From: Saprospiraceae bacterium
GTDB taxonomy: Bacteria > Bacteroidota > Bacteroidia > Chitinophagales > Saprospiraceae
NCBI GenBank assembly: GCA_013001975.1
Contig: JABDKX010000112.1
Span: 1-44,084, forward strand
Direction of reading: 5' to 3'
DNA length: 44,084 bases
In this document: in pieces, positions 16,595 through 17,294 of the stretch
How positions within the stretch are numbered: the stretch's first letter is position 1
How the letters are laid out: every line of letters starts with the position of its first letter
Translations under genes and position numbers: made by a program
The notes under the pieces: generated by a model
The model's input: the letters and a program-made list of their open reading frames with translations, nothing else
The model's database searches: none
What the model was told of the DNA's origin: nothing

Positions 16595-16623
16595 TAAGAC
16601 GCATCGAATCTAAACGAGGTTAC
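16595..16623 (-). promoter_or_regulatory. ECF-type promoter for the DUF6249-like gene
   Basis: On the minus strand GTAACC (16623-16618) is followed after exactly 16 bases by CGTCTTA (16601-16595), the layout of ECF sigma promoters. The -35 lies in AGTGTAACCTC, identical to that of the sigma gene promoter. Confidence 0.8.
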
Positions 16624-16664
16624 ACTTTTTCTTTACTTTCATTTTATATCTTGATTTAAATAGT

Positions 16665-16693
16665 GTAACCTCTATAAAATTATATACGTCTAA
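16665..16693 (+). promoter_or_regulatory. ECF-type autoregulatory promoter of the sigma operon
   Basis: GTAACC (16665-16670), 16 bases, then CGTCTAA (16687-16693). It matches ECF -35/-10 spacing and mirrors the divergent promoter. Transcription would begin near 16700, about ten bases before the sigma start. The AAGGAG at 16692-16697 would lie upstream of the mRNA start, so it is probably not a ribosome site. Confidence 0.82.
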
Positions 16694-17286: not shown

Positions 17287-17294
17287 TAACTTTG
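17287..17294 (+). promoter_or_regulatory. Possible internal -7 box before the anti-sigma-like gene
   Basis: TAACTTTG matches TAnnTTTG and ends seven bases before the ATG at 17302. No -33 TTG at standard distance, so this is a weak candidate for separate low-level expression. Confidence 0.25.

Follow-up and report, generated by a model that had tools for sequence, protein, structure and literature searches.

Mirrored ECF-type promoters suggest a sigma factor switch that includes a DUF6249 membrane protein in Bacteroidota

The window, by which we mean the whole 44,084-nucleotide stretch of Saprospiraceae DNA analysed here, holds an ECF sigma gene with a putative anti-sigma gene behind it and, on the opposite strand, a gene for a DUF6249 protein (Table 1). 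The 134 bases between the DUF6249 gene and the sigma gene contain two ECF-type promoters that face outward. The promoter-binding parts of the sigma factor are sigma regions 2 and 4 only (Pfam Sigma70_r2 and r4_2), matches that agree with its identification as a sigma factor in the first-pass annotation, and its nearest solved relatives by sequence in a PDB search are SigW and sigma-E. The anti-sigma gene follows the sigma gene after 28 bases and is predicted to belong to the same operon. According to Pfam, the genes around the pair are a DinB-like gene and a gene for a CNNM/CBS membrane protein, both of which also flank it in three relatives (L004, L005 and L023); among named relatives, the closest four (L004-L007) all come from Saprospiraceae.

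Table 1. Genes and candidate promoters at the DUF6249/sigma locus (positions in the window)
Feature	Position	Strand	Basis and remarks
DUF6249 gene, 113 aa	16234..16575	-	Pfam PF19762, E 7e-13; membrane protein with three predicted helices
Promoter of DUF6249 gene, ECF-type	16595..16624	-	TGTAACC-N16-CGTCTTA; last base of CGTC 23 positions before ATG
Promoter of sigma operon, ECF-type	16664..16693	+	TGTAACC-N16-CGTCTAA; last base of CGTC 20 positions before ATG
ECF sigma factor, 187 aa	16710..17273	+	Pfam r2 7e-18, r4_2 1e-10
Anti-sigma factor, 172 aa	17302..17820	+	Cytoplasmic helical domain and two predicted membrane helices; family profile

A housekeeping promoter was considered as the driver of these genes and rejected, as TAnnTTTG, the housekeeping motif according to the part of PMC9723704 available to us, is absent between the DUF6249 and sigma genes. 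Elsewhere at the locus, a TAACTTTG box, the Bacteroidota housekeeping -7 form, lies at 17287-17294 (+) and stops 7 bases 5' of the anti-sigma gene, where it could provide that gene with basal transcription of its own; housekeeping -7 boxes occur in the window about once per 1,350 positions, which is the chance expectation.

The first-pass annotation had pointed to an inverted 11-mer in two mirrored promoters. AGTGTAACCTC occurs without mismatch at 16662-16672 (+) and 16616-16626 (-), and the -10 parts after 16 bases read CGTCTAA (+) and CGTCTTA (-), exactly as claimed; the inverted arms are 35 bases apart. The accompanying statement that the window holds no other GTAACC-N16-CGTC was borne out by a pattern search with spacers of 15 to 17: GTAACC-N15..17-CGTC has exactly two matches, one at 16665-16690 (+) and one at 16598-16623 (-), and the spacer is 16 in each, while the mean in shuffled windows is 0.02 and none of 100 shuffles reached two. 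At both sites the -35 contains AAC and the -10 contains CGT, as ECF target promoters do according to the accessible part of PMC8103513. We infer that the sigma factor controls both promoters directly.

The comparison with relatives covers 111 loci. Searches seeded with PF19762 contributed 73 loci from 247 sampled genomes of the phylum, and searches seeded with the sigma factor contributed 38, namely nine from one set of 18 and 30 from a second, minus one duplicate. Left out of the set of 18 were L013-L021, which have 27-30% identity and lie outside Bacteroidota or are not placed in it; of the sigma matches in the second set, only the 30 with loci were used. L145-L149, which repeat loci already included, and L026, which shares a contig with L007, were removed before counting. 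DUF6249 is present in 71 of the 247 genomes. With the window counted, an ECF sigma gene lies no more than about 2 kb from 72 of 74 DUF6249 matches (all but those in G132 and G323), a near-obligate pairing that counts ECF neighbours rather than orthologues because the sigma profile also scores other ECF factors. Across the 111 loci, the two genes are paired in 99, with some of the 12 unpaired cases at contig ends, and all 99 paired sigma proteins are distinct. The orientation is divergent in 84 of these and codirectional, with DUF6249 upstream, in 15. The search for DUF6249 genomes was centred on the phylum of the window; the control genome, that of Caulobacter vibrioides, gave one DUF6249 match above the cut-off.

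In the relatives, the promoter pattern was defined as GTAACC or a near form (G, T/A, AAC, C/T) followed after 15-18 bases by NGTC. It stands on both sides in 69 of the 84 divergent loci, on one side in five and on neither in ten, two of which have the -35 together with CGTA or CGTT; dinucleotide shuffles give the pattern at 1.5% per side and at 0.02% on both sides (0.0002 per locus). Mirroring at this frequency supports the earlier proposal that the sigma factor reads both promoters. The exact form, GTAACC-N16-CGTC, is found on both sides in 25 of the 84 loci, and the consensus built from promoters with a spacer of 16 (63 on the sigma side and 51 on the DUF side) is identical on the two sides, TGTAACC with CGTCwwA, the final A reaching 94% on each. 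The distance from the end of CGTC to the called start codon is mostly 10-13 positions on the sigma side and about 30-50 on the DUF side, and some promoters fall inside called frames because start codons were called mechanically and some of them are wrong. Among the 15 codirectional loci, 11 have no clear site upstream of DUF6249.

Two genomes have separated the genes to different extents. In G032, which belongs to the same genus, the DUF6249 and sigma genes lie 801 bases apart with another reading frame between them, which looks like a SanA/YdcF-type protein from a reading of its sequence. Each gene has a promoter directly upstream; the two promoters are about 750 bases apart, and the genome holds no other TGTAACC-N16/17-CGTC, with a count of two for the reversed control as well. 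In G132, a single contig of 5.1 Mb, DUF6249 lies at 1,071,951 (locus L077, G132:C1:1071771-1072271) and the best sigma match, with 42% identity to the query from L080, at 1,346,009, so that 274 kb separate them. This genome contains 12 GTAACC-N16-CGTC, one of which stands 9 bases 5' of the sigma frame, and two more are found 130-180 bases before the DUF6249 domain, inside a frame whose mechanically called start probably lies too far 5'. That the promoters stay with their genes when the pair is split is further support for the sigma factor reading both.

These separations also bear on a quite different reading of the inverted 11-mers, as an operator for a dimeric transcription factor or as a stem-loop instead of two promoters. 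The perfect inversion in the window, at an arm distance of 35 bases, would suit such an element. However, the two -35 elements lie anywhere from 3 to 1869 bases apart across the 69 loci, so the sites behave as two promoters and not as one operator, and the 274 kb between the sites of G132 point the same way. Outside the letters of the bipartite promoter, moreover, likeness to the window sequence disappears in the relatives, and each site includes CGTC at a near-fixed spacing. We therefore consider an operator or stem-loop very improbable.

The two promoters of a locus vary together. The two sides share the second -35 base in all 69 loci (shuffle mean 54.9, largest 63, 2000 shuffles), share the first -10 base in 56 (mean 24.0, largest 38) and have spacers of equal length in 59 (mean 46.4, largest 53), which again favours one sigma factor for both sides. 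When sigma columns are ranked by their coupling to the first -10 base, residues 82 and 85 come out on top; both lie at the end of region 2. Counted by loci, D82 is accompanied by C on both sides in 28 of 30 cases, and other residues in 4 of 39. Residue 82 is aligned with an asparagine of sigma-E that we take to be Asn80, a -10 contact. Columns ranked after 82 and 85 are spread across the whole protein, a scatter that clade effects would give. For the second base of the -35, 8 of the 14 most coupled sigma columns fall in 141-169, in region 4. Phylogeny was then corrected for by means of independent pairs on supported branches of a sigma tree built without the 82/85 segment. No test of coevolution was significant with the 1 to 8 independent supported pairs at hand; A in the -10 and T82 showed no association, the trend being slightly reversed (0.8 against 1.1; 1 to 8 pairs), and for the agreement between promoter sides contrary pairs were nearly absent from the tree (at most 0.1 on average). 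Because of this result, the joint variation, which lies largely between deep clades, is a real pattern but no proof of repeated coevolution.

The whole-genome motif search that had been proposed at first pass was run on the assembly (4.2 Mb, 259 contigs) and returned three GTAACC-N16-CGTC, against nine for the reversed control. Two are the promoters of this locus; the third lies inside a short-repeat array, with no frame of at least 70 aa starting within 200 bases. The relaxed GTAAC-N17/18-CGTC has 23 matches against 82 for its reversed control, and of the 21 away from the locus, 19 are within reading frames, three of them also preceding a same-strand frame start by 126-232 bases, and two are outside with no downstream frame. 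A sharper pattern, TGTAACC-N16-CGTCNWA, which was picked after the relatives had been inspected, matches the two promoters alone in the assembly, with none for the reversed control. Over 198 genomes of the class it occurs in 36 places, of which 33 were examined, 18 lying at a DUF6249 or sigma gene and 15 elsewhere; its reversed control occurs in 63 places by hand count. In ten Saprospiraceae-family genomes selected for holding the module, 18 of 53 places of TGTAACC-N16/17-CGTC are at the module, and the reversed control gives 74 (summed by hand). Genome-wide, then, the motif is no commoner than its reversed control, and by these counts it is not enriched outside the DUF6249/sigma locus. A wider regulon was rejected as an explanation, since lone motif hits elsewhere recur too rarely to support one. 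Lone intergenic copies were noticed in L150, L167, L179 and L200, where the downstream genes, named from their protein starts, are FtsX-like permeases (two genomes), a PadR-like gene and a DUF2807-like gene.

It could also be that the promoters are of the ECF type and are read by another ECF factor of the genome, or by several overlapping ones. Genomes of the family contain many sigma-like candidates, other ECF factors of the genome could use the same motif, and the available part of PMC9723704 raises the possibility that ECF regulons of Flavobacterium psychrophilum overlap in part. Against this stand the rarity of the motif and its location at this locus, as well as promoter letters that track residues of this sigma factor, subject to the clade effects noted above. 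Ten loci taken from 21 ECF matches comprised the orthologue, with the motif, one locus without a usable frame and eight others; upstream of all eight of these other ECF genes, examined in G132 and G323, the motif was not found, which further supports the assignment of both promoters to the adjacent sigma factor. We accordingly rate reading by other ECF factors as improbable and retain the adjacent sigma factor as the preferred candidate.

The gene downstream of the sigma gene had been put down as a putative anti-sigma gene, and the family profile agrees. Built from 50 family members, the window's protein first among them, the profile matches RsiW at 1.5e-10, DdvA at 3.5e-5, RseA at 0.0015 and RsrA at 0.0065; a CHAT-domain protein also matches, at 0.00096, and unrelated coiled proteins follow from 0.0097 on. 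By this profile, the family carries a class I anti-sigma domain, N-terminal and helical, before the membrane helix. Matches to zf-HC2 are present in 15 of the 50 members and to RseA_N in six (E ≤0.01); the window's protein matches neither and, as a single sequence, gives no Pfam hit worth naming, and we read the zinc site as lost in many members of the family. The model of the window's anti-sigma factor (mean pLDDT 81.5, pTM 0.45) has RsiW as its best Foldseek match among solved structures, with a probability of 0.95 but an E value of 0.28. Frames downstream of the sigma gene, picked mechanically, were found in 103 of 109 loci; the prediction gives 85 of them two membrane segments, 10 a single one and 8 none. 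Membership of an RsiW/RseA-type anti-sigma family with two predicted membrane helices is thus well supported. The protein has no evident sensor, because only a short stretch joins its two membrane helices. Shortened anti-sigma factors of about 130-144 aa (L104, L106-L108, L111-L113, L116-L119, L123, L125 and L126) retain, ahead of their first membrane helix, nothing but a segment bearing a PSxxF(T)-like motif, possibly a minimal anti-sigma domain.

The DUF6249-like identity given at first pass stands, with a Pfam PF19762 score of 48.8 bits against a gathering cut-off of 33, and PF19762 is matched by all 72 members of the DUF6249 alignment A1 (E ≤0.01); other weak and scattered Pfam hits in this alignment, such as PspB in one of the 72, were set aside. 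The consensus of the 72 members runs from a first helix through RxxERxALIEKG and LKxGxL...GxGLxxG to a third helix with GxGL, and in our reading the basic stretch after the first helix would put that loop in the cytoplasm. The AlphaFold2 model (mean pLDDT 89.5, pTM 0.57) has helices at 2-38, 42-80 and 88-112. A solved-structure search with this model gave no significant match (best E 1.3), so the fold suggests no function for DUF6249, and in those parts of the searched literature that were accessible, its sole mention is in a paper on a plant kinase family.

We propose, with a probability of roughly 0.86, that the locus is a self-contained ECF switch in which the sigma factor would read both promoters and so serve its own operon and the divergent DUF6249 gene. 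At rest, the cell would keep its sigma factor bound to the two-helix membrane anti-sigma factor until a signal, probably derived from the envelope or membrane, released it. Sigma-loaded RNA polymerase would then initiate at the two outward-facing TGTAACC-N16-CGTCwwA promoters. Initiation at the first would amplify the sigma/anti-sigma operon in a positive loop, with the co-made anti-sigma factor providing shut-off, and initiation at the second would yield the small membrane protein DUF6249, either as a dedicated output or as a feedback part of the circuit. We lean towards a dedicated output.

With the same promoters, DUF6249 might instead be a signalling part, that is, a sensor or an antagonist of the anti-sigma factor. 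Several features favour this: an ECF sigma neighbour accompanies 72 of the 74 DUF6249 matches, DUF6249 overlaps the sigma gene or lies within 12 bases of it in 13 of the 15 codirectional loci, and the anti-sigma factor, with its short inter-helix stretch, has no evident sensor. The available part of PMC8103513 describes such a part in phyR, divergent from nepR-ecfG in alphaproteobacteria. In the case of ECF41, however, the adjacent COE gene is concluded to be a target and not a signalling component, as far as the accessible text of PMC3426412 goes. A signalling role is in our judgement a real possibility, if short of an even chance. Slightly more tentative still is its specific form, in which DUF6249 would be a third component, a glycine-rich three-helix membrane protein that senses the state of the membrane or acts on the anti-sigma factor. 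If this were true, sigma factor, anti-sigma factor and DUF6249 would form an obligate three-part unit throughout the phylum, with the mirrored promoters holding the three parts in proportion.

Whichever role DUF6249 has, the proposed self-contained switch would resemble two known schemes, ECF41-COE and EcfG-PhyR, in the accessible parts of the sources on both. ECF41-COE is the nearest precedent (PMC3426412). As here, one conserved neighbour is the detectable target (a putative one in the present case), the same bipartite promoter precedes both genes, and the -10 is CGTC after a spacer of 16; of 55 divergent ECF41 loci, the motif was reported at 36 ECF and 41 COE genes. ECF41 differs in its -35, TGTCACA, and its regulatory C-terminal extension, whereas the present factor has GTAACC and 187 aa without an extension; the COE gene is likewise lacking, and the factor does not qualify as an ECF41 member. 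The module described here further differs in its membrane anti-sigma factor, in DUF6249 as the partner and in the predominance of the divergent layout (84 of 99 paired loci). In EcfG-NepR/PhyR, as proposed here, divergent units are both driven by the sigma factor that one of them encodes (PMC8103513, in the part available), but PhyR antagonises the anti-sigma factor NepR and there is no membrane anti-sigma factor, whereas the present module pairs a small membrane protein, DUF6249, with an anti-sigma factor of the RsiW/RseA kind.

SigW-RsiW of Bacillus provides the best solved-structure matches for the sigma factor and the anti-sigma family, but the window's anti-sigma factor has two predicted membrane helices and lacks a zinc-finger match, and the SigW equivalog cut-offs are not reached (112 bits against 209; 100.8 against 243.1). 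Closer in taxonomy are CirY-CirZ and EcfO-Reo of Phocaeicola, which are Bacteroidota sigma/anti-sigma pairs linked to stress (PMC13114119 and PMC9308784, each in the sections at hand). The target genes of CirY are adjacent, like the putative target here, but consist of a Spy chaperone and two wall-related genes (PMC13114119), while EcfO targets NigD proteins and Reo extends to the outer membrane (PMC9308784); the term DUF is absent from both papers. For Flavobacterium psychrophilum, the available part of PMC9723704 describes a CGT-type ECF motif, SM6, with one sigma/anti-sigma pair under it. What is new here is DUF6249 as a near-obligate ECF partner. In the accessible portions of the ECF literature on factors, promoters, regulons and Bacteroidota, no description of a DUF6249-ECF module was found; the 2021 ECF reclassification may include it.

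For DUF6249, a family of unknown function present in 71 of the 247 sampled genomes, the locus points to a likely regulator and a promoter code and allows a concrete hypothesis to be framed. Many genera share the mirrored layout, which may serve as an evolutionary record of an ECF factor and its promoters changing together, and the module is compact and apparently insulated, as half of the 36 places of the sharper motif in the 198 genomes are at the module.

Two variations of the layout were noticed in the relatives. Upstream of DUF6249, 11 loci (L081, L103, L109, L110, L120, L121, L122, L124, L128, L131 and L132) have two tandem ECF-type promoters about 55-96 bases apart, and nine of these loci belong to one family (f16). 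At L144:3959-4679, a tandem pair of DUF6249 genes lies opposite one sigma gene, in divergent orientation.
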